The position numbers were made by a program, and so were the translations under genes. A stretch of DNA of 64,000 nt, from the NCBI GenBank assembly GCA_026392515.1, contig JAPLBY010000001.1, positions 1 through 64,000 on the forward strand. Reading direction: 5' to 3'. The stretch is from Actinomycetota bacterium (lineage in GTDB: Bacteria > Actinomycetota > Actinomycetes > S36-B12 > UBA5976). Below are positions 3,001 through 36,190 of the stretch, one piece after another. The notes beneath the pieces are model-generated. The model was not told the DNA's origin. It saw only the letters and a list, made by a program, of their open reading frames with translations, and did not search any database. The stretch's first letter is position 1. Every line of letters begins with the position of its first letter.

Positions 3001-4925
3001 CAAAGCTTTACAGATGACGCAACTAAATTAATGTCAGGATCCGAAGTTGCATCTCCCACCAACAAATCAGTGGTCTGAGCTGACCCCTTCTTGCCCGATG
3101 TGGTTTCAGGATCTGCAGTTGGAGGATCTGGGGCAAAAACTGTTGGAGTAATGGTTGAATCAACAATTACTCCACGGGTATCAGCAACTTGGTACTTAAG
3201 TGGGGTCTGAACGGTTCCAGCAAAAGTTGGTAGTGGGTTAAAGGTAACTGTGCCATCTGAATTAAGCGTGTAAGTACCCTCACCTGGAATTGTTACAGTT
3301 CCATTCACGCCCACTGAACAGTTGTTTGGTGACTGTGCTTCGTTTGTTGGCGAAGTTGCTGGATCATCAACTTGGCAAAGACGAATAGTTGAGGCACTGA
3401 TTGGGAATGCGGCTGATCCCGCGGTGTCATTACCTAATGGTGTGATGGTCTGATTTTGGTCATAGTCGCCAGAACTTACGTTAGCTACCGCGACAGGTGG
3501 TGGTGGGGTTCCAACAGTTGGTGTGTAAGTTGAATTCACAAAACGATCTAATGAATCTTTCGTCTGATACGTAATTGGCGTTGCTTGCCCAGTAAATGTT
3601 GCAAGTGGGGTGAAGGTAATGCGACCAGTTGCTGCGTCGTATGCGTATGTGCCTTGATTTGGAATAGTTACTGAGGTCGCTGAACAGTTATTTGGGCTTT
3701 GCGCTTCATTTGTAAGCAACGTGCTTGCATCATCTATTGCACACAACTTAAAGTTCGACTGTGAAAGCGGGAAGGACGCAGAGCCAGGCGTCTCATTCGT
3801 TAATGGCGTAGTACTTTGTGCCGTGTTGTATGGACCCGATGTGGTTTCTGGCGCAGCACTTGGTACAGGTGGAAGACCTACTGTAGGTGTGATGTTCGCA
3901 GAAACCTTTCGGCCCAGCGCATCCGTAACCTGATAACCAACAGGAGTTGCAACCGTTCCAGTAAATGTTGGCAGTGGATTGAAAGTTACTGTGCCATCTG
4001 AATTAACTGTGTATGTTCCATCCGCAGTTGTTAGCGACGTCAAAGTGCAGTTTGGTGATGTTTGAGGTGGTGTCGAAGCGGGATTGCAAAGCTTGACTGT
4101 CTCTGGAAGCAAGGTTTGTTCGTTGCTTCCAGAACTGTCATTTTCAAGAGGCCTGATCAATTGATTCGTATCGTAATTGCCGCTAGAAACGTCATTAGTT
4201 GCCGTAGCCGTAGGTGGTTGTGCAACAGTTGGAGTAATCGTTGAATTCTCAAACTGACCCAATGTGTCTTGCGCTTGGTATTTAACCGGAGTTGCAACTG
4301 TTCCATAGAAGGTTGGAAGTGGGTTAAACGTTACGGTTCCATCCGAATTGATTGTGTAGGTGCCTTCACCCGGAATGGTTACTGAGGTCGCTGAACAACT
4401 ATTTGGAGACTGTGACTCATTGACTCCGCTTGTTGCTGGGTTATCAACCTGGCAAAGCTTTATTGAATTAGCTACTAATGGGTAGCTTGCACTTCCACGA
4501 ATGTCATTACTTAAAGGATTGATGATTTGATCTTTATCGTAATCTCCACTTGAGGCATCAGGAATGCCGGTCGGTGCAGGAATGACGACTGGGTTAATGG
4601 TTGATGACGATGTTCTGTTTTGAGTGTCGGCAATTTGATATTTGATTGGAGTTGCAGTTCCAGTAAATGTTGGGTCTGGATCAAAAGTTACTGTGCCATT
4701 TGCATTAAGTGTGTAGGTTCCTTCGCCTGGAATTGTTAAGGATTGACCAACGCCAATCGTGCAATTCATAGGTGTTTGCGCTGGAAGGCAAAGGAACATT
4801 TTTGCCATGTTATTGGCTGCACCTGCTTCGAACTGATCATTTACCAATGGGCTAATGGTTTGATTTACATCCTTGGCGCCAATGGAATCGTCTCTAACCG
4901 CAGATGGAATTGCAAAGCTGGCAAT
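1..4925 (-). repeat. Fourteen CshA-type fibril repeats within the giant gene
   Basis: Reading leftward on the minus strand, units of about 110-128 codons each end in a TPTV-type strand followed by a Pro-rich hinge. The ends lie near 4590, 4215, 3880, 3525, 3140, 2800, 2440, 2105, 1760, 1415, 1070, 740, 390 and 20. The core of each unit reads roughly VKLC..NC..GTYT..G.(V/M)TF.P...(F/Y)TGT..PV.Y.V.D..G. This matches my memory of the CshA-type fibril repeat. Most units carry a pair of cysteines near the start. The last unit reaches the window edge, so the true count may be higher. Confidence 0.8.
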
Positions 4926-7900
4926 GGAAAGTGAGTAGTCTTCAACTTCACCAGAACCTACTTTTCCGGAAGGCAAAGCCAACGAATCGTAACTTAGGCG
5001 CACGCGAGCATAGGTAGGTCCGGAGACAATGTTGCTTGGAATTGTCCACAAGATGTTTGCGGAAGTTTGGCCAACTGTAGGACTTGGTGCACAAGCTCGT
5101 TCAGTAGCAGTGAAAATTCCATCTCTGTTGAAGTCAATCCAGGCACAAAGATTCGCTGTTTCGGTGACACCAGCAAGCGTTACTGGAATCGTGAATGTTT
5201 GCCCCGCTTGGTTATTCATCAAGCCATTCCAAGCTGACTGAGGAACACCATCGTCAACCACAACATTTCCATTGGACATATTGATTGCGCCAGCTTTGAT
5301 CTCGGTGCCCGCGGCTACTGCATCCGCATTTGTTGTTGAGTAGAGGCTGGATGGATTATCAGCAGTTACTACGCTGCCAAGCTTTAGGCTGCCTAATGCG
5401 TGGCTAGCTACTGGGTTGTCATAACTTGTTGGCACCATTCCGAAGTCTTCGGGGATGCTTACAGTTAAGTTCCAGGCGTCTTCATTTCCACCATCGCCGC
5501 CAACGCTTGATGCAGCATATTCAAAATTGACCTGGAAAGTAGCTGATGTATAGACGCCCTCTAGTTGTAGCGATCCACAGACCGCTTGAGAGTTGGCGCC
5601 ATAGCCCGATGTTCTGTGGCAATAAATGGCAGGGACTGTTCCATCAACATTTCCAACGACAGTTCCATTTTGTGAAATTTGAATATTTGTACCGGCGAGC
5701 GCGGTAAATCTGGCGCCGGGTACGGAACTAGTTCCATTCATTCCCCCAAGAAGTTGCATTTCAGACCAACCAGCACCATTGCTACCGCCACCCCAACCGG
5801 CGAAGGAAACGACAGGATTTGTCACAGGCTTGCTAAAGCTGATTGTCATTACACCGCGGTTATCACAGCGGCCAATCAATTGATTTGCAACACATCCATC
5901 ATTGGAAGTCCACATCATTAGACCTGGTTCAGTTACCAAGCCAACAGATTGGAAGTCACCTGCTTGTCCACCACGCTCACTTAATGATTCAGTTGCTTGA
6001 TCGATACATAGGTAGTCACCGGTAACGGAAACTGTGTAAGTAACACCATTAGGTAAGAGTTTTGATTTCGAACTATTCCTATAAGCCGAACCAGCGCTTG
6101 GGCAACCTTGTGTTGGTTGGCCACCAACCCATTCCCAGGAAGTACTTGTTGGTTGGTTGCTGGTGTTGAAAGATAATGCATCGTTTCCACGCAGATCCTG
6201 AAGTGCTGAATTAGAAGCGTTAGAAACTACAGGAGAAGGGGCCGTGTATGAAACTGCAACAACGCTACCGGGCGCGATCGACGATGGAAGCGTTAGAACA
6301 ATAGTTTGACCCGAGATGGTTACTGCCGTTGGAGTGATCGGATCGTTACCCGCAAACACTGTGTACTTATCAGCTGTGGCGGAGGTTGAGCTAAGTGGTT
6401 CACTCAGCGTAACTGTTACCTGATTGCCTGAAAAAGTAACGGTAGAGACAGTCGGTGGAGTTACATCAGGTTGGCCGTTTGAGTTATTTGTAACCACAGT
6501 ACTAGTCAGGGTTGCTGCATCATTTCCTGACAGATCCTGAACCGCTGAATTTGTGGTTGCCCCATTCGGAGTTGGAGCCACATAAGAAACGGAAACAGAT
6601 TCGCCTGAAACAATACTTGTGCCGACAGTCAGGACAACAGTTGAACCACTAACTGAAACTGCGGTTGGGCTAAACGTCAGGCCGTTCAAGGTTATGGAGT
6701 AGTCAGAAGGAAGCGCAGTTTTTGAACTCAACGCCTCGTTGTAGGTCAAGATGATCTGTGTGCCATTTGTATTAGTCGCGGCAGACTGGAAGACCGGTGC
6801 GGTTCGATCAACAACTGCAGTGGATGTATTAGGTACTGAGGTAGCTGCAATTGCGGCAGCGTCATTTCCGTATACGTCTTGAATGGCTGCAGCATCTGCA
6901 CGACTGTTTGGAGTTGGCGGCGTGTATGCAACAGATACAGTTTGTCCCAATTCAATTGGCGGGGACATTGTCAATGTAAGTTGCTGACCGACAACCGCAA
7001 CGCTACTTACAGTTGACGCAGTTCCATTAACAAGAACTGTGAACATGCTTCCTGTTGGAACAACTCCACCCATTGCCTCGTCATATGTCAAAACTATTGT
7101 TTGTCCATTTGTGCCTGGCATGGTGATTGATGTAAGCGTTGGGGCCGTTACATCTCCAGGCTGAGTGGAACTGTTTGTAAGCGGTTTTTCAGTGAAACTT
7201 CTGGCAGTTTGGTCGGGAAACGGAGTGCTAGATGGATACTCCCAGCTCGCTGTGACTGTAGAACCTGCTGGAATTGTTGGTGTACAGCCGGAAAACGCAA
7301 AGGAATTTGCAGGTGTGCCATATCCAAGTGTCGAACACTTTACTGCCATGCCGTTGGCATAAAGGGTTAAGTTACTTGCCCAGGCGGAGCTAAGCGCAAC
7401 TCCCTTGGAAAATACTATGGTTGCCGACGTTCCATTGGCATTAACGGTACCGCTGAGAAAACCAGGTGGGCCCTGAGTGGAACCGTTTGTCACACCAAAT
7501 GAATTGGCAATACTTAACGCATCATTTCCAGTTGTGTCCTGGATTGCGGAATTTGTTGTGGCTGTGTCAGGGGTTGGAGGTGTGTAAGCAACAGTTACAT
7601 CTTGGCCGCCATTTACTGTCGAACCTAAAGCAAGAGTAACCGTGGATCCATTTACCGTTACCGTACTTACTGTCACTGGAGTTCCATCAACTGTCACTAC
7701 ATATGAAGAAGCAGCTGGTTTGTTTACAGTGTTTAGAGACTCGTTGTAAAAGAGAACAAGGGTCGTTCCGGTTGTAGCGATAGATGCGCTACTCAACACA
7801 GGTGGTGTTTGATCCTGAGTTGAATTGTTCGTTACAGTCACCGCTGTTGAAGCAGTTGACGTATTGCTTGCAAGATCTGAAATTCCTGGAACATTTGCAG

Positions 7901-31062: not shown

Positions 31063-32250
31063 ATGAACCAACCGCTTTCACTCGATGCACCTGTTCTCGA
31101 AATTATCGAACGAGGTTTTCAAGGTCTCTACTCTGGAGAGCTTGGACTTAGTTCCATCAAGGGCGGGCAAACTACAGCTGACAGTGCTTTAGAAACACTG
31201 GACATCACTGGTTATGCAAGCAAGCGTTCTGAGGTTCTTCCGAAGTCACGCCGCGGTGCAAGCGTTTTATCGCCATACATCCGCCACAATCTTCTGACTC
31301 TGGCTCAAGTGCATCGCGCAGTTAAAACAGCTCCGTATAAGGATCGCGAAAAATTCCAGGATGAACTTTATTGGCAGGAATACGCACGCCACCTTTATGC
31401 CCGCATTGGTACTCGGCTATTTGAAAATCTGCGATTTGAAGCAAATGCAAAGAGTCAAGGTGATGGCTGGAATCGCGACATGAAATGTGTTGATGAGGTT
31501 GTTTCAGAACTAGAAACAGACGGATGGTTAGTCAATCAAACTCGGATGTGGCTTGCTTCGCATTGGACGGTTCGCAACAACATCGGTTGGTTGCATGGCC
31601 AGGATCGTATGTACCAAGAATTGATTGACGGCTCGCGCGCGGCAAACCTTCTTGGATGGCAGTGGACTGTTGGTGCAGGAACAGGTAAGCCTTATGGGTT
31701 TGCGCGCTGGCAGGTTGAAAAGCGAGCTCCTGGTTTGTGTAATCAATGTCAGTTCTCGAATGCTTGCCCTATCCAAGAATTTCCAGAAGAAGTTTCGTTA
31801 AACCGAATTGATGTTGATTCTCTATTGGAACATGATCTTGATCCAGAAAAGACATCCGGACCATCGACTGCGTTGAAAACGGATTCACCAAAGTACGTAT
31901 TGCTAACTATTGATTCGATGGGTGACAAAGATCCAGCACTGGTAGCCAATCCTGATCTGCCGGTTGTATTCGTATTTAACGAGGAAGCGCTTCGTAAACT
32001 TCAGTTGAGTTCAAGGCGAATTGGTTTCTATCTCGAAACTCTCCAGGACTTGGCGCAGCGACGTAACTTGCAGGTACATTTAGGCAACCCCTACGAATTT
32101 GCCAAAGTTAATCCAGTTGCAGTCACGTTCGCGCCGGTTCCGTCATTTAAGAAGTTCACAAATCTGGCTGAGATTCACCCATACCCATGGTTACAAAAAC
32201 CGCACTCAGGTTCAGTCAAGAGTTTTTCGGCCTGGCGAAAGTCAAAATAA
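31063..32250 (+). CDS. Photolyase/cryptochrome-like flavoprotein with swapped domain order
   Basis: Residues ~25-225 match the helical FAD-binding domain of DNA photolyases: LSPYIRHNLLTLAQV, DELYWQEYARHLY, DGWLVNQTRMWLASHW and IDGSRAANLLGWQW. Normally an alpha/beta domain precedes this part. Here that domain seems to follow (residues ~277-395): YVLLTIDSMGDKDPAL, LPVVFVFNEEAL, SSRRIGFYLETLQDLAQRR, LQVHLGNP, and a final SVKSFSAWRK that recalls the usual TPFWRAW linker. A cysteine cluster C226-x2-C229-x5-C235 lies between. It may repair UV dimers or sense light. The protein is otherwise complete at 395 residues, shorter than typical photolyases (~450-500). Confidence 0.8.
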   Translation: MNQPLSLDAPVLEIIERGFQGLYSGELGLSSIKGGQTTADSALETLDITGYASKRSEVLPKSRRGASVLSPYIRHNLLTLAQVHRAVKTAPYKDREKFQDELYWQEYARHLYARIGTRLFENLRFEANAKSQGDGWNRDMKCVDEVVSELETDGWLVNQTRMWLASHWTVRNNIGWLHGQDRMYQELIDGSRAANLLGWQWTVGAGTGKPYGFARWQVEKRAPGLCNQCQFSNACPIQEFPEEVSLNRIDVDSLLEHDLDPEKTSGPSTALKTDSPKYVLLTIDSMGDKDPALVANPDLPVVFVFNEEALRKLQLSSRRIGFYLETLQDLAQRRNLQVHLGNPYEFAKVNPVAVTFAPVPSFKKFTNLAEIHPYPWLQKPHSGSVKSFSAWRKSK

Positions 32251-32282: not shown

Positions 32283-32358
32283 TGGCGCGCTCGAAGGGAT
32301 TCGAACCCCTAACCTTCTGATCCGTAGTCAGATGCTCTATCCGTTGAGCTACGAGCGC
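32283..32358 (-). tRNA. tRNA-Arg (ACG)
   Basis: The minus strand folds as a tRNA: acceptor GCGCTCG paired with CGAGCGC, anticodon arm TCTGA-CTACGGA-TCAGA with anticodon ACG, and T-loop GGTTCGAATCC. The discriminator base is G and CCA is encoded. It reads CGU-family arginine codons after deamination of A34. Confidence 0.97.
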
Positions 32359-32794: not shown

Positions 32795-33163
32795 TTAATC
32801 GTCACTTGCAATCCCTGCCCTGGAACTTGCCTGAATTTTTGGCAGAAATGTGCTCAAAAATCGATTTGGGTTTGGCTCTGAAAGCAAGATTTCGATACTC
32901 GCCGAGTTGGCTTCACATTCTGCTTGGGTACCGAAATTTGTAGTGCTGTACTCCTGCGCGAAAACACAAGCCTGTTCTTGATTGAATTCAAGTTCGCGAG
33001 CTCCGGCCAGTGCAATGGCTTCTGCTTTAGCGTTCAACCTTTGCTGTGCAATTAGAACTTCAGCAACCATTCCAATTGCGATGGTTCCAAGAAGGAATGC
33101 AATAACGACTGCTAACACCAGAATTGAGATCTGTCCCGATTCACTCTTCGTTGACCGATCCAT
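32795..33163 (-). CDS. TadE-like / Rv3654c-type secretion-neighbourhood protein
   Basis: The 122-residue protein opens with ESGQISILVLAVVIAFLLG, one membrane helix (~12-35), followed by RLNAKAEAIALAGAREL. This is the pattern of TadE-like proteins that end actinobacterial Tad clusters (Rv3654c type). The rest is exported and contains two cysteines. It is probably a minor pilin or assembly factor. Gaps of two bases link it to the gene before. Confidence 0.8.
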   Translation of the reverse strand: MDRSTKSESGQISILVLAVVIAFLLGTIAIGMVAEVLIAQQRLNAKAEAIALAGARELEFNQEQACVFAQEYSTTNFGTQAECEANSASIEILLSEPNPNRFLSTFLPKIQASSRAGIASDD

Positions 33164-33165
33164 AC

Positions 33166-33567
33166 TTAACCAAATTCTTCAAAGACGGGTTCAAGTCGAG
33201 CACGCGAAATTGCCGATAAATCGATTTGGTACGGGACCAAAATCAAGCCAATGTTCTTGGTGGTCCTTAAAGTGAACTGAACAACTTCAGCTTCCGTGTC
33301 AGGTTCAATCACGATTTCAGTTCCTTCCGGAAGTGAGTTTCGAAATGAATCAGGAATCGGATCGCCGCGTCCAACAATTCTTGCGCCCAATGCCGCTGCA
33401 CTCTCCAATTGAATTTGGGTAACAGTTAATCCCACAAGCGAGACTGACATTGCAACAACAATCAAAAGTGCAGGAATTGCCAATGCAAATTCGGCAATCG
33501 CATATCCGTGACTGCGTTGGACTAGGTGTTTGCCCTCATCTAGTCCAACGCTGACTTCACTAGTCAT
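33166..33567 (-). CDS. TadE-family minor pilin
   Basis: The 133-residue protein has HGYAIAEFALAIPALLIVVAMSV, the TadE-type start with a glutamate at position 5 of the hydrophobic stretch, then QLESAAALGARIVGRGD. The periplasmic part is ~80 residues. TadE/TadG pseudopilins take part in Tad pilus assembly. It sits between the pilin-like gene and the TadE-like gene with gaps of two bases. Confidence 0.82.
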   Translation of the reverse strand: MTSEVSVGLDEGKHLVQRSHGYAIAEFALAIPALLIVVAMSVSLVGLTVTQIQLESAAALGARIVGRGDPIPDSFRNSLPEGTEIVIEPDTEAEVVQFTLRTTKNIGLILVPYQIDLSAISRARLEPVFEEFG

Positions 33568-33569
33568 GC

Positions 33570-33755
33570 TTAGCTAAAGAAAAGAAAGCTAAATGCCTGC
33601 TGAATAATCTTCCAAAACAGATCTTGGACTTCTGGACTTGTCAGCATCTTTAGTAACAATCCGCCTAGACCGGCAGCAGCAACAGTTCCAACTGCATACT
33701 CAGCAGTTGTCATACCTTCTTCATTTGTAATCGCTTGATTAATTCTTGGATTCAC
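33570..33755 (-). CDS. Flp-type pilin (DUF4244)
   Basis: The 61-residue protein contains NEEGMTTAEYAVGTVAAAGLGGLLLK, a Flp pilin core: a processing site G/M, the conserved E two residues after TA, and one helix. The frame opens at 33815, but GAGG stands five bases before a GTG at 33755, which gives the short pre-pilin expected (Rv3656c is of similar type). It would be the major subunit of a thin pilus. Confidence 0.8.
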   Translation of the reverse strand: MNPRINQAITNEEGMTTAEYAVGTVAAAGLGGLLLKMLTSPEVQDLFWKIIQQAFSFLFFS

Positions 33756-33861
33756 TGGTACCTCATTTCTGATAATGCGCGAGTGCGCAATTGAAGTTTG
33801 AGGAATTGGCACCAATCTCGAAACACAAATGCGAGACTTGTTGAATTCGTCCGTCTGTGGA

Positions 33862-34428
33862 TTACTGAGTTAGGCCACCAATCAACCCAGCGACAATTGG
33901 TATTACCGCAAGCAGAATGAACGCTGGCAAGAAACATAAGCCCAAAGGCAAAACACTTTTCACCGCAACAGATTTGATTCGCTGTAACTTTTCGGTATCG
34001 ATCGAGCTTTGTAACACAAACTCAACATCGGCCAACTGGTCTGTGATTGGACTACCGGAATGCAGGGATGTTATTAATGCATCTGAGATAGATCGCCAAC
34101 CAGGATTAGCGATTGCGATTTTCTCAAGCCCACGGGAAAGTGGGAAGCCCACCCCGAATTGATTCAGCGCTTGTTCAAGTTCCTGTGATGCTGCACGAGG
34201 TGAATGTTTCTGGGCGTATTGGAGCGCATCACTAATCGTCATCCCCGAACTGATGCCTAATCGAATAATCTCCAAAGCTTGAAGGACTTCCGAGATAGTG
34301 GCAGTCCTTACCCTGGCAGCTATTTCGATTTGGGTTTCTATGGGCGGGTCCTTCGGTAACTTTCTCTGAGGTGGCGGGAAGTAAAGGTATGCCGCCAAGC
34401 AAATACACAGGATTGCAAAGGTTTTCAC
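33862..34428 (-). CDS. TadC-like type II secretion F-domain protein
   Basis: The 188-residue protein has an N-terminal membrane segment (~3-18), a cytoplasmic F domain containing RLGISSGMTISDALQYA and FGVGFPLSRGLEKIA, then two C-terminal segments (~145-185) with LPLGLCFLPAFILLAVIPIVAGLI. That is about two thirds of the length of proteobacterial TadC but fits short actinobacterial versions. It forms the inner-membrane platform with the TadB-like protein upstream (four-base overlap). Confidence 0.82.
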   Translation of the reverse strand: MKTFAILCICLAAYLYFPPPQRKLPKDPPIETQIEIAARVRTATISEVLQALEIIRLGISSGMTISDALQYAQKHSPRAASQELEQALNQFGVGFPLSRGLEKIAIANPGWRSISDALITSLHSGSPITDQLADVEFVLQSSIDTEKLQRIKSVAVKSVLPLGLCFLPAFILLAVIPIVAGLIGGLTQ

Positions 34429-35093
34429 GCGACATCCGCCAGTGCGCGATTGAGAAGGCGCTTAATCCAAAACCAGCCCACTAGTTCAAGCCCAATTCCA
34501 AGTGCTAGACAAACTCGTCCAGCTGGAGAACCAAGCAACCAAGATATCGAATCGGAGCCGAGCATCAATCCCATGCCTGCGCCCATAATCGGCAATCCGG
34601 CAAGAACATAAACTGTGGCCTTTGTACTTGCCAATTCAGTAGCAATCAACTGTTCTTGGTTTCTTATCGTCATTAACTTGTCAGCTACTTGCGTTAGTGC
34701 TTCGTTGATACTGCTACCCGATTGCGAACTTAACTCAAGTAGATTCGCGCAACTTGCTAAAGATGCAACTTTGTAAACTTTCGAGTCATTATGCAGTGCG
34801 GAATAAACATTGGTTTGTGAAGTTAGAGCTTGCCGAGTGTTCTTAAACGCAAATTCTGGCGCTCGACTAATTGCAAATCTGAGAGCGTCCAATTGGTTTA
34901 TCCCAGCATTTAGCTGACTCTTTAGATTGAATACAAATTGGAGTTCCTCTTCGAAAGACAAATTACTTTTGACTTTTTGTTTTAGGGCTAACTTTGGAAT
35001 TCTAATTTCCGAAACCCATTGCAACCTTGGCAGTGGCCGCACCATCATGACCGCAGCAATCGAAATAAGCGCCGTAGCTATGAATAGTTTCAT
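34425..35093 (-). CDS. TadB-like type II secretion F-domain protein
   Basis: The 222-residue protein has an N-terminal hydrophobic segment (~3-20), a cytoplasmic F domain with FNLKSQLNAGINQLDALRFA and SSQSGSSINEALTQVADKL, and two C-terminal segments (~155-215). It overlaps both the ATPase gene and the TadC-like gene by four bases. Together they drive the Tad pilus. Length fits the short actinobacterial form. Confidence 0.82.
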   Translation of the reverse strand: MKLFIATALISIAAVMMVRPLPRLQWVSEIRIPKLALKQKVKSNLSFEEELQFVFNLKSQLNAGINQLDALRFAISRAPEFAFKNTRQALTSQTNVYSALHNDSKVYKVASLASCANLLELSSQSGSSINEALTQVADKLMTIRNQEQLIATELASTKATVYVLAGLPIMGAGMGLMLGSDSISWLLGSPAGRVCLALGIGLELVGWFWIKRLLNRALADVA

Positions 35094-36190
35094 GCGACTC
35101 GGCTAATGAGATGTGGTTTATAGATCGGTTGGGTTGTGACAGTGCCATTTGGTGATCTAGTGAATTCCGCTATTTCGGCTACGCCCCGCTTTCCATTCCG
35201 GGGATTATTCATTTGGATCACAGCGTCAAATGCCGAATGCATCTGAGCGTGAATGGCTTCTCGCGGCAAGCCAGCCAACAATCCCAGTGCCTCAATTCGG
35301 GTTGGCACACTTGCCGCAGCGTCAGCGTGAATGGTTGTTGCACTTCCCTTGTGCCCGGTGTTTAACGCAAGTAACAAGTCGCTGATCTCTTTACCTCGGA
35401 CCTCGCCAACCACGATTCGATCAGGGCGCATTCGCAGCGACTGTCTAACTAGATCCGTCATAGTGATTCCACCCGCACCTTCACTATTTGCCAGACGTGC
35501 TTGGATGCTCACCACATGCGGATGTGAAATCGAAAGCTCGGAAGAATCTTCAATTACGACGATCCTTTCTGTAGTTCTTACTTTGGTGATCATGGCTGCT
35601 AGCAAAGTAGTTTTTCCGCTACCAGTCCCACCGCTGACAACAAAACTTTTTTGTTCGTCGACTAATTCACAGAGTGCTTGGTAAGTGTCGCTTTCCAAGT
35701 TGCCAGCTGCCACCATGTCTTCGAGTGTCAGCGAAATTCTTAGAGGAGTACGGATTGAAATGGCAATCCCTGATGATGCAATCGGGGGAAGCATCGCATG
35801 AAACCGTAAGCCAGCATCTGTTTGGATGTCGACAAATGGTTGTGCTTCATCAAGTCTGCGGTGTCCACGAGTGGCGATTCGTTTAGCAAACTCTTGAGCT
35901 GCGCTCTCGGAACTGAATTGAACTTGAGTTTTCTCAAGTCCATTTCCCTTATCAATCCAAACATCATCAAAGCGATTCACCAAGATGTCGGTGAGATTAG
36001 GCAGGAACAAGAGTTCTTCTAATGGACCTAGGCCATTGATTGAAGATAGGACCTCATCAACCAATTCAACAAGGTCCGAGTGAGAAGTGGCTGGGTGAAG
36101 CGATCGAACGATTTGAGATATCGATTCTGCATTTAGTTCAACTTTGGCTTCAATACAAGCAGCTCGGATTTGTTCCAGGAGATCAGGCAA
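35090..36190 (-). CDS. TadA/CpaF-type secretion ATPase
   Basis: The 366-residue ATPase shows Walker A (SGGTGSGKTTLLA, ~190), the Asp box (IVVIEDSSEL), Walker B-like RPDRIVVGEVRGKE and the His box (GHKGSATTIHAD). The N-terminal part has GLGPLEELL and TDILVNRFDDVWID, as in CpaF/TadA proteins. It powers pilus assembly. It overlaps the CpaE-like gene by eight bases. Confidence 0.94.
   Translation of the reverse strand: MPDLLEQIRAACIEAKVELNAESISQIVRSLHPATSHSDLVELVDEVLSSINGLGPLEELLFLPNLTDILVNRFDDVWIDKGNGLEKTQVQFSSESAAQEFAKRIATRGHRRLDEAQPFVDIQTDAGLRFHAMLPPIASSGIAISIRTPLRISLTLEDMVAAGNLESDTYQALCELVDEQKSFVVSGGTGSGKTTLLAAMITKVRTTERIVVIEDSSELSISHPHVVSIQARLANSEGAGGITMTDLVRQSLRMRPDRIVVGEVRGKEISDLLLALNTGHKGSATTIHADAAASVPTRIEALGLLAGLPREAIHAQMHSAFDAVIQMNNPRNGKRGVAEIAEFTRSPNGTVTTQPIYKPHLISRVA

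Follow-up and report, generated by a model that had tools for sequence, protein, structure and literature searches.

A photolyase gene with reversed domain order

The window analysed here, 64,000 nucleotides long (positions 1 to 64,000 of contig JAPLBY010000001.1, assembly GCA_026392515.1, from an Actinomycetota bacterium), carries an intact, ATG-started open reading frame (ORF) of 395 amino acids at 31063-32250 on the forward strand. It encodes a photolyase-family protein with the helical domain for flavin adenine dinucleotide (FAD) first and a short alpha/beta domain last. We consider it very likely that the protein is an actinobacterial member of the SPL/Phr6 branch, i.e. a circularly permuted photolyase with a shortened alpha/beta domain that would bind an iron-sulfur (Fe-S) cluster, conduct electrons through a Trp dyad and repair cyclobutane pyrimidine dimers (CPDs). 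The features of the gene, based in part on an AlphaFold2 (AF2) model and its local confidence score (pLDDT), are the following:

31063..32250 (+): reversed-order photolyase gene (SPL/Phr6 type), 395 amino acids; ORF, Pfam, family alignment, AF2
31063..31770 (+): N-terminal FAD-binding helical domain including the Fe-S cysteines, residues 1-236; FAD_binding_7, helical in AF2, conserved E101/W104/N158/M162/W176/W199/W201
31486..31488 (+): Cys142, candidate first Fe-S ligand; invariant in 28 sequences, spacing equivalent to C169 of RS9916 Phr4
31738..31767 (+): Cys226-x2-Cys229-x5-Cys235, candidate remaining Fe-S ligands; invariant in 28 sequences, spacing of C254/C257/C263 of RS9916 Phr4
31771..31893 (+): interdomain linker, residues 237-277; low conservation, AF2 pLDDT lower at residues 241-260
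31894..32247 (+): C-terminal alpha/beta domain of ~118 amino acids, residues 278-395; profile ranking, doubled-profile alignment, AF2 beta-alpha pattern, Foldseek

The FAD-binding domain and its active site

The preliminary description of this locus had placed an FAD domain first and a photolyase-type alpha/beta domain last, an order that Pfam, profile ranking and alignment to a doubled profile all bear out. Comparing the two parts separately with photolyase families, as it had proposed, gave a match to FAD_binding_7 (residues 100-208, E=1.5e-9) for the N-terminal part and homology to the photolyase antenna domain for the C-terminal part. In a sequence search of the PDB, solved photolyases matched residues 51-211, i.e. 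the N-terminal part only, and no solved reversed-order photolyase was found. The full-length AF2 model (predicted template modelling score, pTM, 0.90) is helical in its N-terminal part and matches photolyases in a structure search; its significant BFVD matches are photolyases as well.

Residues were mapped through an alignment to the photolyase of Anacystis nidulans. The CPD contacts E283, W286, N349, M353 and W392 of that enzyme correspond to E101, W104, N158, M162 and W201, and the sole mapped contact that is changed is R350, found here as Q159. The first two tryptophans of the electron chain (W390 and W367) correspond to W199 and W176. All seven of these kept residues are invariant in the 28 actinobacterial sequences of the family. 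The roles assigned to the A. nidulans residues are drawn in part from PMC9426592.

Four invariant cysteines

Cys142, Cys226, Cys229 and Cys235 are likewise invariant in the 28 sequences. Their spacing of 84/3/6 compares with 85/3/6 in Phr4 of Synechococcus RS9916, whose cysteines 169, 254, 257 and 263 have been reported as Fe-S ligands (PMC9426592). The three-cysteine cluster first noticed near the domain junction (Cys226/229/235) is thus present but incomplete without its fourth member, Cys142, and the suggestion that it may hold a metal is strengthened by the agreement with the published ligand spacing.

Antenna-domain homology of the C-terminal part

The assignment of the C-terminal domain rests on a profile built from the 28 family members. 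With this profile, several ordinary photolyases were matched twice and in swapped order, family positions ~282-350 aligning to their ~20-120 and positions 31-205 to their ~210-400; the single-domain scores behind these double matches are individually weak. Against a profile of ordinary photolyases, the C-terminal profile aligned at the antenna domain with P=4.7e-6, the next-best place reaching P=0.3. We also ranked 556 proteins by hhalign against the C-terminal profile, 33 of them ordinary photolyases and 523 unrelated ORFs taken as background from the loci retrieved. Ranks 1-11 were all ordinary photolyases, each aligned at its antenna domain, and once Deinococcus sequences were included this held for the photolyases at ranks 1-14; the remaining, more diverged ordinary photolyases rank lower, mixed with the background. 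Since the ranked photolyases had been gathered by their FAD domain, their selection did not favour this result.

Furthermore, against a profile of ordinary photolyases written twice in succession, the family profile scored 233.7, compared with 203.0 for the FAD domain alone, and the alignment ran continuously from the FAD domain of the first copy into the antenna domain of the second, as expected of a circular permutation. The Deinococcus relatives provide a bridge: their C-terminal domain matches the antenna domain with P=2.3e-9, and the actinobacterial C-terminal domain matches theirs with P=1.1e-19. Taken individually, the C-terminal parts of the Deinococcus homologues match PF00875 (DNA_photolyase) with E=9e-5 to 2e-4. 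For both Fe-S types, actinobacterial and Deinococcus, these profile statistics establish the C-terminal domain as homologous to the photolyase antenna domain. For the alphaproteobacterial (NewPHL-like) and Persicobacter C-terminal domains, direct comparison with the antenna domain was not significant (P=0.029 and 0.27, respectively).

At the level of structure, AF2 shows a beta-alpha pattern in the C-terminal domain. The motifs singled out in the preliminary description, SSRRIGFYLETL, LQVHLGNP and SFSAWRK, are all present, and in the alignment the first two fall on positions of the antenna domain; in addition, 'GDKDPAL' lines up with the region of the canonical 'LxDNPAL'.

Distribution and phylogeny of the family

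Of 60 related genomes, 12 carry an orthologue, which in one case is truncated at the end of a contig and in another is spread over two contigs. The counts are ~21 among 297 genomes at the level of the class and ~25 among 396 at that of the phylum, and a public genome collection added 26 further loci. Full-length copies occur in Nanopelagicales and across Actinomycetota, and in all whole-genome matches that do not run off a contig, the alignment extends to the C-terminus of the family profile. Relatives with the same reversed order are carried by Deinococcus plasmids. On a plasmid of Deinococcus sp. QL22 (L118) the two domains lie in two overlapping adjacent genes, 3944-4717 and 4714-5235, resembling the phr4/phr5 arrangement reported for Synechococcus; the second gene is annotated 'hypothetical protein' though it encodes the photolyase alpha/beta domain. 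No viral relatives were found among IMG/VR contigs, and matches in a phage collection cover the FAD-domain part only.

In the tree, whose reversed proteins are those collected here, Deinococcus and alphaproteobacterial ones included, ordinary photolyases form one clade (100/99) free of any reversed protein, a pattern consistent with the reversed order having arisen once. The exact position of the root is unsure because the long FeS-BCP row disturbs it.

Several loci of relatives deserve mention. In Persicobacter (L120) the reversed photolyase ORF (3854-5066) is followed by an overlapping frame (4947-6522) of an ordinary-order photolyase-like gene. In two relatives, L037 (-, ORF from reverse-strand 9151) and L039 (-, ORF from reverse-strand 4153), an ordinary photolyase gene sits on the other strand, no more than a few kb away from the reversed one. 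Near an intact gene, at G008:C134:11993-12076 (+), lies a short opposite-strand piece that is 57% like residues 366-393 and contains an internal stop; it may be a remnant of a second, decayed copy. Orthologues very close to freshwater actinobacterial ones occur in records that bear the titles Bifidobacterium breve or Ferrithrix thermotolerans (L037, L054, L056), and the organism names on these metagenome bins look wrong.

Genomic neighbourhood

On the same strand, 66 bp upstream of the reversed photolyase gene, is a gene for a LuxR-type response regulator. A conserved operon of the two was not supported, as this neighbour recurs in one close relative only, many of the searched loci being short. 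Directly downstream, on the opposite strand, is a tRNA gene (32286-32358, -), and beyond it a Tad/Flp-type pilus cluster (32795-36190, -) with a TadE-like protein, a T2SSE ATPase and membrane partners. Elsewhere, the same genome of ~1.7 Mb also codes for a class I photolyase with FAD_binding_7 and DNA_photolyase domains and, as a separate protein (L003), for a DPRP-type, prokaryotic (6-4)-like photolyase, so that the reversed-order protein is the third member of the photolyase family there.

Proposed function and alternative explanations

The protein is best explained as a circular permutation of an ordinary photolyase, with the FAD-binding catalytic domain at the front and a shortened alpha/beta domain at the end. 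It would bind FAD and one [4Fe-4S] cluster held by Cys142, Cys226, Cys229 and Cys235, the flavin would be photoreduced through the Trp dyad W199 and W176, and blue or UV-A light would drive the splitting of CPDs held at E101, W104, N158, M162 and W201. Judged from the conserved residues, the most likely activity is light-driven CPD repair by the reduced flavin, FADH-. The role of the Fe-S cluster is probably structural, and the enzyme probably acts alongside the class I and prokaryotic (6-4)-type photolyases of the genome. By analogy with what has been reported for NewPHL, it may possibly act on single-stranded DNA; whether the shortened alpha/beta domain serves as an antenna is uncertain.

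Some observations weigh against this interpretation. In place of the class I triad W390-W367-W314 only the first two tryptophans are found, since the third (W314) corresponds to Phe125, a position that is not invariant in the family. The flavin contact D382 is replaced by Ser191, invariant in all 28 actinobacterial sequences, and flavin binding may therefore differ. Taken alone, the C-terminal part of the protein scores 14.1 bits against PF00875 (E=0.045), short of the curated cut-off, and it is by the Deinococcus relatives and the ranking with the family profile that this weak match is made firm.

The best-surviving alternative keeps the fold and the ancestry and supposes that the protein is a cryptochrome-like light sensor or a (6-4) photolyase and not a CPD photolyase, which we regard as unlikely, if worth keeping in mind. 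Four Fe-S cysteines are a trait of prokaryotic (6-4) photolyases, and it was because of them that (6-4) repair was suggested for Phr4/5/6 (PMC9426592); the response regulator gene next door also speaks for this alternative. However, the mapped CPD contacts are all kept save the one at R350, a DPRP-type, prokaryotic (6-4)-like enzyme is already encoded elsewhere in the genome, and the response regulator accompanies the gene at only one other searched family locus.

It is far less probable that a fusion placed an unrelated, Rossmann-like domain behind the FAD domain. Besides the weak PF00875 match of the single sequence, a Foldseek search with the C-terminal model alone speaks for such a fusion, as nothing matched at E<=0.001 and USP-like and adenylyltransferase folds were also listed; the best solved-structure matches in that search were nevertheless photolyases (5zcw and 1qnf, probability 0.99-1.00), albeit weak ones (E=0.02, TM 0.54-0.62). 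We rejected it on the profile ranking, where no unrelated protein among the 523 background ORFs came near the top ordinary photolyases, and the Deinococcus relatives bridge the gap. That an ordinary photolyase took on this form through a chimeric assembly or a frameshift error can be dismissed almost entirely, since full-length orthologues are present in numerous independent assemblies and on named Deinococcus plasmids; occurring at full length across Actinomycetota, the protein is not an assembly fusion.

What is new here is modest, namely that in Fe-S SPLs the C-terminal domain is linked statistically to the antenna domain. On a further reading, which we put forward tentatively, at somewhat less than even chances, the SPL branch would descend from ordinary photolyases or share an already two-domain ancestor with them, and SPLs would not represent a one-domain ancestor. 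The antenna-domain homology in both Actinomycetota and Deinococcus bears directly on this question and is open to test by structure and phylogeny. With the reversed-order protein, this actinobacterium, whose relatives come from sunlit fresh and sea water, has three photorepair enzymes in ~1.7 Mb of genome.

Comparison with known systems

The preliminary description knew of no described photolyase with this domain order, which was mistaken. The order has been published for Phr4/Phr5 and Phr6 of picocyanobacteria (mBio 2022, PMC9426592), an 'inverted domain topology' is ascribed to NewPHL (Emmerich et al. 2020, cited in PMC13274461), and SPL had been described as well; the present finding therefore adds a member to a known type. 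In marine Synechococcus and Cyanobium, Phr6 and the split Phr4/Phr5 share the arrangement seen here, in which the FAD domain precedes the photolyase domain. Unlike these, the protein described here is actinobacterial, its alpha/beta domain is cut down to ~118 amino acids, and every intact actinobacterial copy seen is a single chain.

SPL (Xu et al. 2021, MBE), as described in PMC9649867 and PMC9498864, has an N-terminal FAD domain and no N-terminal alpha/beta domain, as here, with an Fe-S cluster in some members and similarity to CPD classes I/III. In contrast to that description, an alpha/beta domain is present here at the C-terminus. The tested SPL member reportedly comes from Rhodococcus fascians, also an actinobacterium. 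NewPHL, the single-strand-specific photolyases, shares the inverted order (Emmerich et al. 2020, cited in PMC13274461) and a Trp dyad (PMC8948257) with our protein, but the alphaproteobacterial relatives collected here are without the Fe-S cysteines, and their C-terminal domain is without a significant direct antenna-domain match.

Class I CPD photolyases share the FAD domain and the active-site residues, whereas here the order of an N-terminal antenna domain followed by the FAD domain is reversed, four Fe-S cysteines are present and the third Trp is missing. FeS-BCP, or prokaryotic (6-4) photolyase (PhrB), shares four cysteines thought to bind an Fe-S cluster but differs in domain order, and no match to its DPRP domain (PF04244) was found in the 395-residue protein with Pfam at E<=1. 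An N-terminal FAD domain, a C-terminal alpha/beta domain and four cysteines with Phr4-like spacing are what the protein has in common with the SPL/Phr6 type.
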